From BD2-11 clade cluster bacterium bin43 (GTDB lineage: Bacteria; Gemmatimonadota; Gemmatimonadetes; Longimicrobiales; Gaopeijiaceae): a stretch of 64,000 nucleotides of DNA. This document shows, one piece after another, positions 55,477 through 63,550 of the stretch. The position numbers and the translations under genes were made by a program. The stretch spans positions 124,001 through 188,000 of the forward strand of contig MPMR01000005.1 of assembly GCA_002238605.1 (NCBI GenBank), given 5' to 3'. Each line of letters opens with the position of its first letter. Within the stretch, counting starts at the first letter, position 1. The notes under the pieces are model-generated. The model saw only the letters and a list, made by a program, of their open reading frames with translations, was not told the DNA's origin and did no database searches.

Positions 55477-57516
55477 TCAGCTCACCGGGCGGCTGGCGTT
55501 CATGACCCAGCGGTCGTACCAGGCGAGGTAGCGCTCGTAGCGGTCCTTCTGATAGCTGGGGACGCGGATGCCGTGGCTCTGGCCCGGGTAGACCACGAGC
55601 TGGGTGGGCACGCCGCGCCGGCGCAGCGCCTGGTAGAGCTGCTCGGAGTTGAGGATGGGCACGTTCCAGTCATCCTCGCCGCCCATGATGAGGGTCGGTG
55701 TGCTGACCTCGTGCACCTTGTTGAAGGGGCTGATGCGCTCCCAGTTGTCGCGGTTGTCGCCCTCCCAGGGGAGCCCAAGTTCGGCCTCCCACTGCCGCTG
55801 GTAGTGGTCGTGCCCGTAGTTGGCGATGTAGAGCACTTCGCTCGCCCCGGTGATGGCCCCCTCGAAGCGGTCGGTCTGGGTGATGACGTAGTTGGTGAGG
55901 ATGCCGCCGTACGACCAGCCGCCCACGCCCAGCCGGTCGGGGTCGGTCCAGCCCTGCTCGATGGCGTAGTCGATGCCCGCCATCACGTCCTTGAAGTCGG
56001 GGTTGCCCCAGTCGGCCCACAGCGCCGCCGAGAAGTCCTGCCCGTACCCCGACGAGCCGCGCGGATTGGTGCGCACGACCACGTATCCGTGGGCCGCGAA
56101 GAGCTGCGACTCGAACTGGAAGGAGTGGCTGTACTGGGAGACGGGGCCGCCGTGGATGCGCAGGATCGTGGGATAGGCGCGGCCTTCCTCATAGTCGGGC
56201 GGGAACGTGACGAACCCCTCGACTTCGATTCCGCCTTCGGAGGGGAACTGGATGTTGCGGGTTTCGGCGATGTTGACGGTCTGGAGGAAGTCGTCGTTGT
56301 GGCCCGTGACGCGGCGCAGCGCGGCGTCGCCGCCGTCGAAGTCCTCCACGGCGTAGATTTCGCCGGGACGGTCCAGGTAGTTGACCCGGGCCGCGAAGGT
56401 GCCGCCGTTCCAGTCGAAGCCCGATGCCGAGAGCCCGCCGGAAACCGGCCGCTCCAGGTCCGAGCCGTCCGGGCGGATGCGCGCGATGTGGTTTTCAGAG
56501 GAGTCCTCGAGCCCGAACCAGATCCATTCGCCGTCCGGAGAGAAGCGGGGCGAGCGCACATTGCGGTCCAGGTCGGTGGTGAGCAGGCGGGGCTCGCCCC
56601 CGTCCGCCGGGACAACCGCGAGGTGAGTGGTGGCGTACCAGATCAGGTCGGGACGGATGCCGGTGCTGTAGGCGAGCCAGCGACCGTCCGGGCTCCACTG
56701 CGGTGAACCGTCCGAGCCGGGGTTGGTGGTGACCTGCCGGGGGGAGTCCGTGGGCTCCTCGAGATCCGCGGACACCACCCAGATGTCGTTGTTGGCGTTC
56801 AGGTCGGGATCTTCCGTGCGGTTCGAGACGAACGCGATCCGGGTTCCGTCCGGGCTCCAGACGCCCAGGGATTCATTCCAGCGTCCCGTGGTGAGCTGCC
56901 GCAACTCTTTGGCATCGATCTTGTAGACATACAGGTGCGTCATGCGTGAGCCGGTCAGGTAGCCGGCGCCGTCCCGCTTGAACTGGATGCGGTCGATGAC
57001 CCAGGGATCCTGCGGAGCGTTGGGCTTCGCATCCTCGTCCTCCTCCTCGGCATCGCGGATGGTGAGGAGGAGACGGGTGCCATCGGGGGACCAGCGATAT
57101 CCGCTGATGCCCTGCTCGACATCGGTGAGGGGGAAGGCCTCGCCGCCGCGCCGGTCCAGCGCCCATACCTGGGTCGCGTCCCCGTCGCGAGCCGCGGTGA
57201 AGGTGAGGTATCGGCCATCCGGGCTCCAGGCTGGAGAGCCGGCCGACTGCTGGTCGCGCGTGAGCGGGACGGGGTCGCCGCCCGAGACCGGCGCCATGTA
57301 TACGCGGGTGTAGGAGCGTTCATCCTCCAGGGAGGTGCGCGAGACCGTATACGCGACCCAGTCGCCCTCGGGGCTGACAACGGGCGAGCCTACGTTCTCG
57401 AGCTCGAAGAGGTCGTCGACCGTGATGTTGCGCCGCTCCTGCGCGACTGCGGCTGGAGGGGCGAGCGCAGCCGCGAAAAGCACGAAACCGAGGGCTGCCG
57501 TTACGAGAGCCTTCAT
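55477..57516 (-). CDS. Exported S9-family (prolyl oligopeptidase/acylaminoacyl peptidase-like) serine peptidase
   Basis: 679 residues from ATG 57516 (CAGGAG upstream). Signal peptide ends AAVAQ. An N-terminal propeller (WSPDGRYLTFTAARDG, WSPDGTRLLLTI, FSPDGEWIWFGL) is followed by an alpha/beta hydrolase domain with nucleophile Ser535 (GGWSYGG), a catalytic Asp near 615 (GGEDDWNVP) and His648 (GQSHGI). The propeller restricts access to short peptides. It is likely periplasmic peptide turnover. It heads a run with the ALDH1L-like gene and is divergent from a small lipoprotein gene. Confidence 0.92.
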   Translation of the reverse strand: MKALVTAALGFVLFAAALAPPAAVAQERRNITVDDLFELENVGSPVVSPEGDWVAYTVSRTSLEDERSYTRVYMAPVSGGDPVPLTRDQQSAGSPAWSPDGRYLTFTAARDGDATQVWALDRRGGEAFPLTDVEQGISGYRWSPDGTRLLLTIRDAEEEDEDAKPNAPQDPWVIDRIQFKRDGAGYLTGSRMTHLYVYKIDAKELRQLTTGRWNESLGVWSPDGTRIAFVSNRTEDPDLNANNDIWVVSADLEEPTDSPRQVTTNPGSDGSPQWSPDGRWLAYSTGIRPDLIWYATTHLAVVPADGGEPRLLTTDLDRNVRSPRFSPDGEWIWFGLEDSSENHIARIRPDGSDLERPVSGGLSASGFDWNGGTFAARVNYLDRPGEIYAVEDFDGGDAALRRVTGHNDDFLQTVNIAETRNIQFPSEGGIEVEGFVTFPPDYEEGRAYPTILRIHGGPVSQYSHSFQFESQLFAAHGYVVVRTNPRGSSGYGQDFSAALWADWGNPDFKDVMAGIDYAIEQGWTDPDRLGVGGWSYGGILTNYVITQTDRFEGAITGASEVLYIANYGHDHYQRQWEAELGLPWEGDNRDNWERISPFNKVHEVSTPTLIMGGEDDWNVPILNSEQLYQALRRRGVPTQLVVYPGQSHGIRVPSYQKDRYERYLAWYDRWVMNASRPVS

Positions 57517-57752
57517 GATGAACTCCTGAACCGATGAGTGATGATCCTGACCGTGAGGAGGCAAAGATGAGCGATGAAACCAGGGGAAGCCGGGCGCACG
57601 CAAGAATAACAGCGAGTGAACGGGGGGCGCGACCCGAATCGGCCGCGCGCCCGCGGGGCGTGGAGTTCCCGGTGAGCAGGAGCGGATCGGGAGTGTCCGC
57701 TACGGTGGACAGTGCCGGACCCGGGGGTGCTCGCCGGGTGACGTTTCCGTTC

Positions 57753-58145
57753 ATGCGCGTCATGCTGGTAGCTGCGGTGACCGCCCTCGGCGCAGCCTGC
57801 GCCGCGGGTGCCGGGGAGGGAAACCCGGCCATCACGCCCGGCCTCGAGGATCAGATCGAGATCCGCATCATCAACAACAACTTCAGCGACGCCCGCATGT
57901 ACGCGGTGCACCCCCGTGGGCGGGAGTACATCGGCATGCTCACCGGGAAGACCGAAGCCAACTACACCCTCGACTGGGACATGTCGCAGACGCTCTCGAT
58001 CGAGATCTCGCTGCTCGCCGGCGGGACCTGCACGACGGAGGAACTGATCGTCGATCCCGGCGAAGCCCTCTTCCTCAGCATCGATTCCACGCTGGCCACG
58101 ATGACGAACTGCCGGGGGAACGCGACGGGGATCGGCGGGGGTTAG
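57753..58145 (+). CDS. Small lipoprotein of unknown function
   Basis: About 130 residues from ATG 57753. [16 protein letters not shown] gives a signal with Cys16 as the likely lipid anchor. The mature part ([31 protein letters not shown] and [16 protein letters not shown]) looks like one beta-sandwich domain with two Cys that may form a disulfide. The frame is open further upstream to 57534, but that part is Arg/Ser-rich and non-coding in look. The start has no clear ribosome site. Its stop overlaps the stop of the convergent DprA-like gene as TTAG. Confidence 0.65.
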
Positions 58146-59575
58146 TCGCGGTCGGCTGGCAGGCTCAGTGCCCCCAGACGATCTTGTCCCGCTGAGGTAA
58201 GGCGAAACCGCTGGTTTACGCTGCTCGGCTTCTCGGGAATCGTCATCTCGATCCAGCCCTCCTCAAGGCAGGGCTTGAGATACCGCTCACGCAGGTTTCC
58301 GAGGCTCCGGAGCCCCAGCGCGGTCAGGATATCCTTTCGGCTCATGTCGCCCGAGATGGCGAGAAGAAGTTTCTCTCGTGGTGTGAGAACGGACACCGGT
58401 GCCGGGACCTCCGGCAAGTCTCCCCTGGGATGTGGCCTGGGGTCTTCGACGCCATTGGCGGTCCGGTCATCCCGTTGCCCATGAATCGGCCGACCCGATT
58501 GATGCTCCCGCACCTCCCGGTTCCCGAGAAGTGACAGGTCGTACTGTCCGGACGCAGGTTGTGAAGCCGGTGCGGCAAGTTGGTCCTGTAGAGGGTCACC
58601 TCGAAGGACTCTGTGCAGCGCCTCCGGCGTCTTCGGACTTGGCCAGGGCTTCGCACCACGATCAAGTAGCCGCTCAAGGCCCTCGGAACGTTCGCCGCAA
58701 GCGCGAACGTAAACCGACACGAATCTCAGCTTGTCCAGTTGGTCGGTCGCCCCTGACCAGGTACCCCCATGCCCATAGTCCGAGTTGACCACAAGGGCGG
58801 CGTCCGACAGCGCGTAAATGAGCTTGTTGCGCTGCATGGCGTGGCCCACCAGGAAACGGACCGCCGGATCGTAAGGACAAACCAAAACGAGTCGCCCGTC
58901 CATCAGGGCGCCGCGGTTTCCCCGGTTCAGGGCCGCGCGTTCGAGGCCGTTGGCCAAGACGCCGACCGACCCGCCTCCGGCCTCTAGTGCGCCCCTCATT
59001 GCGGCCTGGTCGATTCCACGCGCTCCACCGGATATGATCGCCGTTTTCGCTTCAGCGCTGAGTCGACCCACGTTTTCGGCGTACTCGACAAGGTCTTCCT
59101 TGACGTTCCGCGAGCCGACCACCGCCAGCCCGCCACTTTCCAGAATCGTGCGATCTCCGCACCCGTAGAGGACTGGCGGGGCGTTTCCTCCCATCCGGGC
59201 CTTCAGCCGCCGCGGATAGTCTGGGTCAGCCCGGGTTACGATCCACAGGGCGCGGGCACGCCACCGTTCAACCGCCTGTGCGAGGAGGAATCCGCGGTCA
59301 AGCAGCCGTTGGATTCGTTCGCCGTCCAGGCCGGCCCGGCATTGGCGCAACACGTTGATAGCCTCACGACCGAGCAAATCGGCTGGCTCCCGTCGGGCGG
59401 CCCGAAGCTGCTTGGCGAAATCGCGGTACTCGGCGGTGGTTAAGGGACGGGGGTTCGCAGAACGGGCACTCCCCTTCACAGTCCGTGGCCGCGACGGGCG
59501 CCTGCGGGAGCCCGCGAGCAAAGGCGCGGTCAACAGCAGAATCGCCTGCGCGTTTGGGCTTAGGTCGGCGGTCAT
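58142..59575 (-). CDS. DprA-like protein with C-terminal winged helix
   Basis: 477 residues from ATG 59575, which overlaps the upstream stop as TGATG; GGGAGC lies upstream. Residues about 105-295 are a DprA/SLOG Rossmann domain: [18 protein letters not shown] (152-158), [22 protein letters not shown] (180-201), VGHAMQRNK (243-251) and [11 protein letters not shown]. Residues about 405-475 form a winged helix ([42 protein letters not shown]). A charged Pro-rich linker joins them. DprA binds ssDNA and loads RecA in transformation. The operon with PRTase and helicase resembles the antitoxin ShosA rather than housekeeping DprA. Confidence 0.85.
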
Positions 59576-60267
59576 CAGCTCCCACGCAGTGACGAGAGAG
59601 CGAGCGGCCACACCTCGCCGCTTCCGTAATGGCGCAAGAGCCACGCGGCCACTGCAAAGGTCCAGCGCGAACCGACGATATCGTCCACCAGAAGGACGGA
59701 CCCGGGCAGTGGCTTTTCGTGCACTTCCAGCACGCCGTCGAGGTTCAGTGCCTGTTGCAGGCTGTTGGCCATCGACTTTTGCTCTTCGGGCGTCCTCGTC
59801 TGTTGGAGAACCGCGCGAAACGGCAACCCCAGAGCACGTGCAAGCCTTCGGGCAAAGTCTGGAACCAGGTCCGGGTTCCGGCGCGAGGGAATGCAGGTCA
59901 CCCACGACGGAGTGGGTTCCGGGTTCCATCGTTGCATCATCCGGACGCAGGCGTCAACGAGCTCATCGTCGAATCCACTTCCGAGTTTTTCTTGCCGGAC
60001 CCTCTCGCCCCATCCCCCGTCGCGCCAGACTGACAGCGCCCTCCCTTCGTTCGCACGAAGCTCATCGGGAATCTTCCCCTTGATCTCGTATTGGGGCAAT
60101 CCGCCAGCGGGCCACATCTTGCGCGGCTCAATCACCAGAGCCCGGCGGCGGAGAAACGCTACGGCCGCTCGCACGAGAACAGGGGTGACGCTCGTGGAGA
60201 GTGACGGCAGATTCGGCGGCTCAAACGCTTCAGGGTCACCATCGAGTGCCTGAACCAGGAATTCCAT
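59575..60267 (-). CDS. ComF-like phosphoribosyltransferase (ShosT-like; split RecQ C-terminal half)
   Basis: 230 residues from ATG 60267, which overlaps the helicase gene by 32 bases in the +1 frame. Residues 1-115 are not PRTase: [15 protein letters not shown] resembles the RecQ zinc-region phrase normally followed by CGRC, and the rest looks like a winged helix. Residues about 120-230 are the PRTase ([34 protein letters not shown]; the PRPP motif [14 protein letters not shown] at 191-204). The usual TTG of the PRPP loop is GSR. Relatives occur fused to RecQ-like helicases. The stop is coupled to the DprA-like start. Confidence 0.82.
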
Positions 60268-61687
60268 GTGTCTCGACCCGGAGTGCGACGTACTCCTGCA
60301 TCTCACTCTGCTCCACTCGTCGCAAGCCGGTCAATCGCTCGGCGCGGTCCCAGAAGGCCTGGCCCAGAGTTGTCGCCGTGAGCTGCCACCTCGAACCCTG
60401 CTTGACGACTGGCGGCGGCGACTCCAGAGACAGCAGTTTCATCGTCTGCTTGATACGGCCACCGCTGATGTTCAGGCCACGCCGAAGGTCTGTCAGCGAT
60501 GCCCCCTGCGGTGACTCTTCCAGCGTGTCGATCACTCGCTGTACTTCATCGCGGGTAGGAAAGGCGGTGTCGATGAAGTAATCCGTGATGTCGGTCTCCT
60601 CGTCGCCGCTCAGCAGCACACCGTAGGCAGCCTCCAGAGCTCGACCGGCACGGCCTACCTGCTGGTAGTAGAAAACAACGGACCCCGGCGTCTGGTAGTG
60701 GATGACGAAACGGAGGTCGGGCTTGTCGAAGCCCATGCCGAGAGCGGGCGTCGCCACCAGGGCTTTCACGCGATTCTCGAGCAATGCCTCCTCGAGCTCT
60801 TCTCGCTCCTCTGGTGGTGTCCGGCCCGTATACGCCCGGACGTCGAGAGATCGTGATCGCAGCCAGGCTGCCACGAGTTCTGCATCACGGATGGTGAGAG
60901 TATAGATAATGCCGTGTCCCGAGAGACGCGGCAGCGTCTCCGCGAGCCAGGCGAGCCGCTCCGCCTGGCTGGGTAGCCGGATCGTCTGCAGAGCGAGGGA
61001 CGGTCGAGCCAAGCTTCCCCGGGCAACGGCCAGATCGGGTCCGAGGACATCTCGCAGATCGCTCATCACACGGTCGTTCGCCGTGGCCGTCGTCGCGAGC
61101 AGCCTCAGGTTTGGCGGAAGGGTGCGGGCGATGCGTTCGATCAGCCGATAGTCGGGACGGAAATCGTGTCCCCAATCGGAGATGCAGTGCGCTTCATCGA
61201 TGACGAGCAGGGAAATACGCCCGGCGATGGGGAAGAGTACTTCGTCACGGAAACGTTCGTTGGCCAGCCGCTCAGGGGCGATCAGCAGGATGTCCACTTC
61301 ATCGCGCACCAATAGCTCTTCCACTTCGGACCATTCGTCCACGTTATCTGATGTGATTCGCCTGGCACGGACTCCCATCCGTTCTGCGGCGGCAATCTGG
61401 TTACGCATGAGGGCGAGCAACGGGGACATCAACAGGGTTGGTTCGGCGCCCGATTCCCTGAGCAGCCTGGTCGCGATGAAGTAGACGAAGCTCTTGCCCC
61501 AACCCGTCTTCTGCACAACGAGGAGTCGGCCGGCACCCCTTACGACATGACTGATGGCTTCTTCCTGCCCCGGGCGGAATCCGGCACCCGGAAGACCGGT
61601 GCCGATCCTGAGGAGTTCACGGGCTCGGTTGCTGTCGTAGGCCAGTCTTCGCACGTCGGATCTCTCGGTCTTGGCCCGTCCCGACAT
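60236..61687 (-). CDS. RecQ-family ATP-dependent DNA helicase, short form
   Basis: 483 residues. Helicase motifs are complete: motif 0 (GFRPGQ, 36-41), Walker A (TGWGKS, 61-66), DEAH box in VIDEAHCISDWGHDFRPDY (162-180), motif III (TTAT, 199-202) and motif VI (QQVGRAGR, 342-349). After about residue 385 a winged-helix segment follows (TDLRRGLNISGGRIKQTM). There is no Cys after motif VI and no HRDC domain. The last phrase [12 protein letters not shown] fits the start of the RecQ zinc region, whose continuation lies in the next gene in another frame. The ATG has no clear ribosome site and lies 50 bases after the amidase stop. Confidence 0.88.
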   Translation of the reverse strand: MSGRAKTERSDVRRLAYDSNRARELLRIGTGLPGAGFRPGQEEAISHVVRGAGRLLVVQKTGWGKSFVYFIATRLLRESGAEPTLLMSPLLALMRNQIAAAERMGVRARRITSDNVDEWSEVEELLVRDEVDILLIAPERLANERFRDEVLFPIAGRISLLVIDEAHCISDWGHDFRPDYRLIERIARTLPPNLRLLATTATANDRVMSDLRDVLGPDLAVARGSLARPSLALQTIRLPSQAERLAWLAETLPRLSGHGIIYTLTIRDAELVAAWLRSRSLDVRAYTGRTPPEEREELEEALLENRVKALVATPALGMGFDKPDLRFVIHYQTPGSVVFYYQQVGRAGRALEAAYGVLLSGDEETDITDYFIDTAFPTRDEVQRVIDTLEESPQGASLTDLRRGLNISGGRIKQTMKLLSLESPPPVVKQGSRWQLTATTLGQAFWDRAERLTGLRRVEQSEMQEYVALRVETHGIPGSGTRW

Positions 61688-61737
61688 CCGCAGATGTTCG
61701 AGAACCAGAGCTGCGACGGGATCGCCGCGTCGAGTCG

Positions 61738-63354
61738 CTAGCGTAGCGCCGGGGCGCTTTCGGGCGGGCTCCGGTGTCCCGTCGCCTGCTCGAAAGCATA
61801 GCCGAAGCGCATCAGCATCCCTTCAGCAAAGGGGCGGCCCAGGAACTCGATTCCGATGGGCAGGCCGTCCGGGGTGAAGCCGGCGGGGACGGTGACCGCG
61901 GGCCAGCCCGTCACCGGACTGAGCAGGCGGTTGTCGCCGAGCCCGTAGTCGTCGGCCGGGGAGGGATTGGTTTCGACGTCGGGGGCGATGAGGGATGGCG
62001 GGTGGTCGAAGGTGGTGTGCACCAGCGCGTCGAGGCCGTGGTCGGCCATCACCTGGTAGACATCCTGGCGGAGCTGGTCGCGGGCCAGCATATAGGCCAG
62101 GTACCCGGGGTCGCGGGTGGTCTTCCCGAGTGAACCCGCCAGCCCGGTCGCCCGCCAGGGCGTCACCCGCCCGCTGAGCAGGATGGAGCGCAGGGTCGTG
62201 TAGGGCGGGTCGTCGAGTGCCGCCAGGTAGGCGTTGGTGGCGGCCTCGGTCTCGTGGGAGTTCAAGGAGTAGATGGCGTTGACCCGGTCGACGCCCGGGA
62301 TGGCGACGTTGTCCACCACTTCGGCGCCCAGCGCACGCAATTGGTCGACGGCGGCGTCGACGCGCGCGCGCACCTGCCGGTAGCCCTCCGAATCCGTGTC
62401 CAGCGCCTGGTCCATGGGATCGCGGATGATGCCGATGCGGGCCCCGTCGAGCCCATCCTCGGAGAGCCCGTCGCTGTAGGAGTCCGGGACCCGGCCCACC
62501 GACACCGCGGTCACCGGGTCGTTGGGGTCGTACCCGGCGATTGCGTCCAGCAGAATGGCCGCGTCCATGACGGTGCGGGTCATCGGCCCCATGGTGTCGG
62601 TGGTGGGGTTGGCGGGCATCATCCCGTATCGGCTGACCAGCTGCAGCGTGGGCCTGAGCCCGACCAGCGAATGCACCGCGGACGGCCCGCGGATGGAACC
62701 GCCGGTGTCCTCTCCGATGCCGATCATCCCCAGGTTGGCGGCCACGCCCGCGCCCGTTCCGCCGGACGAGCCGCTCGGGTTGCGCCGCGGGTCGTACGGG
62801 TTGCGGATGAAGCCGAAACCCGAGCCCACGTAGCGCGAGGCGAACTCGCCCATGTTGGTCTTGGCGAGGATGAGCGCGCCCGCGTCCTTCATGCGCGTGA
62901 CGATGGTGGCCTCGCGGGAGGACACGAACTCGCTGAAGAGCGCCGATCCGTAGGTGGTCGGCATGCCGCGGGTCTCGACCTGGTCCTTGAGGAGAACCGG
63001 GATGCAGTGCAGCGGCCCGCTGAGTCCGCCGGAGGCGAGCGCCTGGTCGAGGCGGGCGGCCTCGTCGAGGGCGGCGGGGTTCAGGTTGGCGATGGTGTTG
63101 AGCCGCGGTCCCTGCTGGTCGTAGGCCTCGATGCGGCCGAGGTAGCCCTGCACCAGGTCGACGCAGGTCAGCTCCCCGGAGAGGAATGCGGCGTGCACCT
63201 CCGCGATGGTTGCTTCCTCGAGCTGGAAGTCCTGGGCGAATGCGGCGCCGGGGGCAGCCAGGAGCAGGCTGGCGCCCAGCAGGAGCCTCATCGGGCGCGG
63301 AGTGCGAGAGCGGGTGCGCGTCTGCCGTTCGAGGGGAAGCCATCCGGGATTCAT
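61738..63354 (-). CDS. Exported amidase (amidase signature family)
   Basis: 538 residues from ATG 63354, with GGAG eight bases upstream; ATG 63291 is an alternative. A long basic n-region precedes the signal core ([20 protein letters not shown]). The triad is Lys123 (VLLKDQ), cis-Ser196 (SGSSGGTG) and Ser220 ([10 protein letters not shown]). Closest in layout to the exported amidases at 11022 and 29144, including the shared ending of the type [12 protein letters not shown]. It is divergent from the dehydrogenase at the right edge and lies 50 bases upstream of the RecQ-like gene on the same strand; a functional tie to that operon is unlikely. Confidence 0.92.
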
Positions 63355-63550
63355 CGGCGTTCTCCGGCGGGGCATTGTGGTGGACTTGTGGAAGGGCATC
63401 TACGTTCTCTCCCCGTTTCCGGGATGGCAAGCAAAACCGCTTGCATCCGCTTGCGGCCGGGGCCATGGTGAGACGCCCCGCCACCCGTGGGTGACCGCAA
63501 CCCGTCTACCATTCGGTATGACCCGGCAAACATGGCAGAGACCGGAGAAC

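Follow-up and report, generated by a model that had tools for sequence, protein, structure and literature searches.

The three overlapping genes on the minus strand of the analysed DNA (the window, 64,000 nucleotides of contig MPMR01000005.1 from BD2-11 clade cluster bacterium bin43) very probably constitute a PsyrTA (RqlHI) toxin-antitoxin and phage-defence pair whose toxin gene is frameshifted, that is, a locus of a known family rather than a new three-part system. What appears to be a three-gene defence module would accordingly be a known pair in disguise, a trap for the discovery of systems from gene order.

Identity of the locus

An initial annotation of the window described a helicase, a phosphoribosyltransferase (PRTase) and a DprA-like gene in this order on one strand. 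Our analysis confirmed the order (61687-60236, 60306/60267-59575 and 59575-58142) together with the overlaps, which comprise 32 bases between helicase and PRTase when the latter starts at ATG 60267, and TGATG between PRTase and DprA-like gene. The trio is also unrelated to its surroundings, as had been stated, because the genes closest to it encode an amidase and an S9 peptidase. The possibility left open there, that a system with exactly these three parts is undescribed, does not hold, since they are the parts of PsyrTA/RqlHI, in which the toxin is normally one RecQ-PRTase protein. The features are:

61738..63399, minus strand: amidase gene (PF01425, E 7.8e-92), left flank, outside the system; adjoins all filled and empty slots
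58152..61726, minus strand: psyrTA cassette, 3.57 kb, delimited by empty-site comparison
60236..61687, minus strand: 5' part of psyrT (rqlH), RecQ-like SF2 helicase lobe; 483-aa ORF ending just past the frameshift
60236..60306, minus strand: frameshift region common to the helicase and PRTase frames; in the DNA alignment its length differs by one nucleotide from that in sister genomes
59575..60306, minus strand: 3' part of psyrT (rqlH), PRTase domain, in a frame other than that of the helicase
58142..59575, minus strand: psyrA (rqlI), DprA-like antitoxin whose C-terminal domain resembles a winged helix; 477 aa, beginning in the TGATG overlap
55477..57603, minus strand: S9 prolyl oligopeptidase gene (PF00326, E 1e-54), right flank, outside the system

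Comparison with the 689-position PADLOC PsyrT model revealed that the helicase ORF matches positions 5-449 (E 1.5e-192) and the PRTase ORF positions 453-684 (E 8.5e-66), the two matches covering nearly the whole model. The helicase ORF also matched RecQ TIGR01389 far beyond chance (E 6.7e-78), and direct reading of its sequence identified a Walker A motif (KTGWGKS), a DEAH box and QQVGRAGR; the top PDB fold matches of a PsyrT model from an intact relative were RecQ cores. The PRTase ORF, which may start at GTG 60306 or ATG 60267 and ends at 59575, gave a weak Pfam match (E 0.0055) and shares 87-88% identity with the C-terminal region of the fused proteins in sister genomes. Modelled alone, this half is compact with a PRTase fold, matching the folds of APRT, ComF, PurF and ShosT with modest TM-scores. 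Directly downstream of psyrT on the same strand, psyrA matched the PADLOC PsyrA model (E 6.6e-114) and its product carries the Pfam domains PF02481 (DprA, E 3.7e-37) and PF21247; the longer 595-aa start at 59929 in the ORF list is unnecessary.

We take PsyrTA and RqlHI to be two names for one family, as their shared architecture supports. The window locus shares with them the toxin-then-antitoxin order, the overlapping ends and the succession of RecQ-like helicase, PRTase and DprA-like parts, and differs in the frameshift that separates helicase from PRTase. It also differs from an E. coli plasmid homologue, whose CxxC motif is absent here. In RqlHI of extraintestinal E. coli, the RecQ-like helicase carries a PRTase at its C-terminus and the gene of a DprA-like partner comes next (PMC4670107); the passages of PMC9122126 and PMC8790059 that cite psyrTA attribute it to Sberro et al. 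2013.

The locus had been proposed to be a ShosTA-related three-gene module. Of this proposal, the PRTase effector, the DprA-like antitoxin, the defence-type toxin-antitoxin character and the distant kinship to ShosTA stand; the count of three genes does not. A PADLOC and profile comparison with ShosT and ShosA, as the initial annotation had suggested, did return ShosTA as a distant relative: the PRTase and DprA-like families are common to both systems, with distant similarity in sequence and fold, and a ShosA structure was among the matches of the PsyrA profile search. However, the PRTase half scored 220.6 bits with PsyrT and 19.9 with ShosT, and the DprA-like protein 379 bits with PsyrA and 76 with ShosA. 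ShosT, moreover, is a 237-position PRTase model in PADLOC without a helicase, which is present here, and membership in ShosTA was rejected. Given also that all intact relatives have two genes, and that the unbroken PsyrT frame of sister genomes refutes a third, a new ShosTA-related three-gene system is hardly credible. The Dpd system was rejected as well: several DpdF models did match the RecQ-like helicase and the PRTase-like region, but the helicase half scored 291.6 bits with the best of them against 639.6 with PsyrT, and the immediate neighbours are the amidase, the S9 peptidase and others.

It is likewise very improbable that the locus serves housekeeping recombination or competence through RecQ, a ComF-like PRTase and DprA instead of acting as a toxin-antitoxin pair. 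Housekeeping relatives exist for all three families and the genes are under purifying selection, yet a better DprA lies elsewhere in the genome (C18, 248 bits), together with other RecQ matches and a ComF-like protein, and the cassette is missing from four sister species. The DprA-like gene is therefore not the genome's only DprA nor the PRTase its only ComF; had they been, the reading of the initial annotation would by its own terms have been refuted. One of the genome's other RecQ-like genes (C28, L024) has an internal TGA within its match to the PsyrT model.

The frameshift between helicase and PRTase

In the window, helicase and PRTase lie in two frames instead of forming a single polypeptide. 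They share one frame in all five relatives first examined (four genomes of the same genus and one of the same order) and in most class-wide matches. The initial annotation had suggested a search for the ordered trio in many genomes; in the 80 loci from other bacteria that were the best 80 matches of the genome_contigs scan, a sample in which split copies could be under-represented, helicase and PRTase were fused in one gene followed by psyrA in every case. The window differs from its sisters at the join by one nucleotide, located between the domains, and in the model of the intact relative this position falls in a loop between helices 441-465 and 471-478. The genes neighbouring the window psyrTA map to the sister genomes in single frames. 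Comparison of the window copy with its sisters gave dN/dS values of ~0.15 for the helicase, ~0.22 for the PRTase and ~0.25 for PsyrA (range 0.15-0.28), indicating that both halves of psyrT as well as psyrA were under purifying selection until recently, and that the break is either recent or a sequencing error. The one-nucleotide difference, the fused relatives and the selection on both halves together argue for a two-gene PsyrTA/RqlHI locus. Judged from these alignments, the window toxin gene is a single psyrT gene cut by a recent one-nucleotide frameshift, whether by mutation or by sequence error.

Could the split be real and working, so that two proteins are made by translational coupling in a three-gene variant of PsyrTA? 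In favour of this, neither half is interrupted and each evolves under purifying selection, the break falls between domains, the PRTase half alone gives a compact model, and the start codons at 60306 and 60267 have a purine-rich stretch upstream. The same upstream bases, however, also occur inside the fused sister genes and so provide no evidence for a PRTase start site; a single nucleotide sets the window apart, and helicase and PRTase are fused in all sister-genus copies as well as in the wider loci described above. We therefore regard a two-protein variant as very unlikely. Programmed frameshifting was rejected too, as the split is kept in no sister or wider relative and a conserved slip site was not seen.

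Damage to psyrT extends beyond the window. The class-wide sample contained 13 genomes with a PsyrT-type PRTase; psyrT of G001 changes frame near helicase residue 50, on a contig with 6x coverage, and psyrT of G256 (L161 2810-5125) is without the helicase core, residues ~86-463, beside an intact psyrA. No internal stop was found in psyrA of the 11 relatives checked. The disruption of psyrT in the window and these two relatives with psyrA intact, like the clean presence or absence of the cassette described below, would suit a costly toxin that is gained and then disarmed, although three cases, of which two are possibly assembly errors, fall short of proof.

The PRTase motif and the proposed mechanism

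The PRPP-loop motif reads VDD[IV]VGSRWT across the genus, VDDMVDSRWT in most wider relatives and VDDIVDSGWT in the E. coli plasmid homologue. By sequence alignment, the glycine of the genus motif coincides with Asp663 of RqlH, a difference between RqlH and the window genus. The same glycine is found in G122, G175, G186, G256 and G298 of the same family and in L090, while G201, also of this family, carries Asp at this position; in the tree, six Gly rows cluster as a single clade and L090 stands separately. Related PRTases whose activity is known vary at this position. RqlH with Asp663 changed to Ala no longer inhibited growth or induced SOS (PMC4670107), and the presence of Gly at a residue needed for toxicity counts against a toxin role in this genus. 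A natural Asp-to-Gly variant at this residue gives a modest starting point, amenable to testing, for understanding PRTase function. That the PRTase chemistry is altered in the PsyrT subfamily of the genus, and that this species runs the protein as two separately translated halves, is a distinctly improbable reading; if it were true, a covalent join between helicase brake and PRTase effector would not be needed.

Normal PsyrT is a single polypeptide that begins with the RecQ-like helicase and ends with the PRTase, and the DprA-like PsyrA is predicted to restrain it. By analogy with RqlHI and ShosTA, the helicase lobe and PsyrA of intact copies would together restrain the PRTase on DNA; phage or another disturbance of DNA would upset the complex, and the released PRTase would act on PRPP or purine nucleotides, with genotoxic stress and arrested growth or death as the outcome. 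Toxicity of RqlH requires the PRTase, both RqlI and the helicase domain exert restraint, and the PRTase domain alone did not inhibit growth (PMC4670107). ShosT is reported to disturb the purine pool, working in purine metabolism both as phosphoribosyltransferase and as pyrophosphatase (2025 review, PMC12593503). In the window copy the frameshift separates the halves, and this copy has probably been inactivated recently or its sequence is in error; that the two separately translated halves still cooperate is less likely. Since RqlH reduced to its PRTase domain failed to inhibit growth, the window copy has probably lost toxin activity.

Anti-phage activity of the window locus is inferred from the PsyrTA family, for which the literature on protection is mixed. 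In P2-like phages, a DprA-PRTase pair confers protection from T7 and lambda (PMC9122126), but PsyrTA of one E. coli strain gave no detectable phage protection and only a growth defect on expression (PMC12409345), indicating that defence by the family is not universal.

The cassette and its chromosomal slot

The slot between the amidase and S9 peptidase genes holds psyrTA in G000, G001, G003, G007 and G010 and is empty in the sister species G004, G005, G008 and G009, in which 61726-58152 is replaced by a short shared spacer of 18-25 bp. A tree of the flanks revealed filled and empty slots interleaved. By this comparison, psyrTA is a self-contained 3.57 kb cassette that occupies a single chromosomal slot and has come and gone among the sister species. 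The initial annotation had named conservation at one position with vertical inheritance as an argument against a mobile module; presence is patchy in the genus, and a mobile module is not refuted. The immediate surroundings of the trio are not a defence island. Inspection of the junctions showed no direct repeats, integrase or target duplication at the cassette borders. The psyrA stop (58142-58145) overlaps that of a small ORF on the opposite strand (57534-58145, plus strand), which is conserved in sister genomes; the bases of the stop overlap are also present in empty slots.

Synonymous divergence between window and sisters was ~0.6 for the helicase part and psyrA, ~0.3 for the PRTase part and 0.24-0.32 for the flanks. 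This pattern suggests that the cassette was exchanged by recombination via flanking homology, and the difference between helicase and PRTase parts may reflect recombination inside psyrT. Carriage by phages was rejected, as no PsyrT match was found among 50,697 phage records at E 1e-60; 13 of 72,556 plasmids matched at 1e-80. On an E. coli plasmid (L149 1832-7848), psyrT-psyrA is flanked by the S and R genes of a type I restriction-modification locus. The contig matching G007 is publicly labelled Gammaproteobacteria and that matching G298 Gemmatimonadetes (L069, L084); both genomes are placed in the family of the window, and one label is probably wrong.
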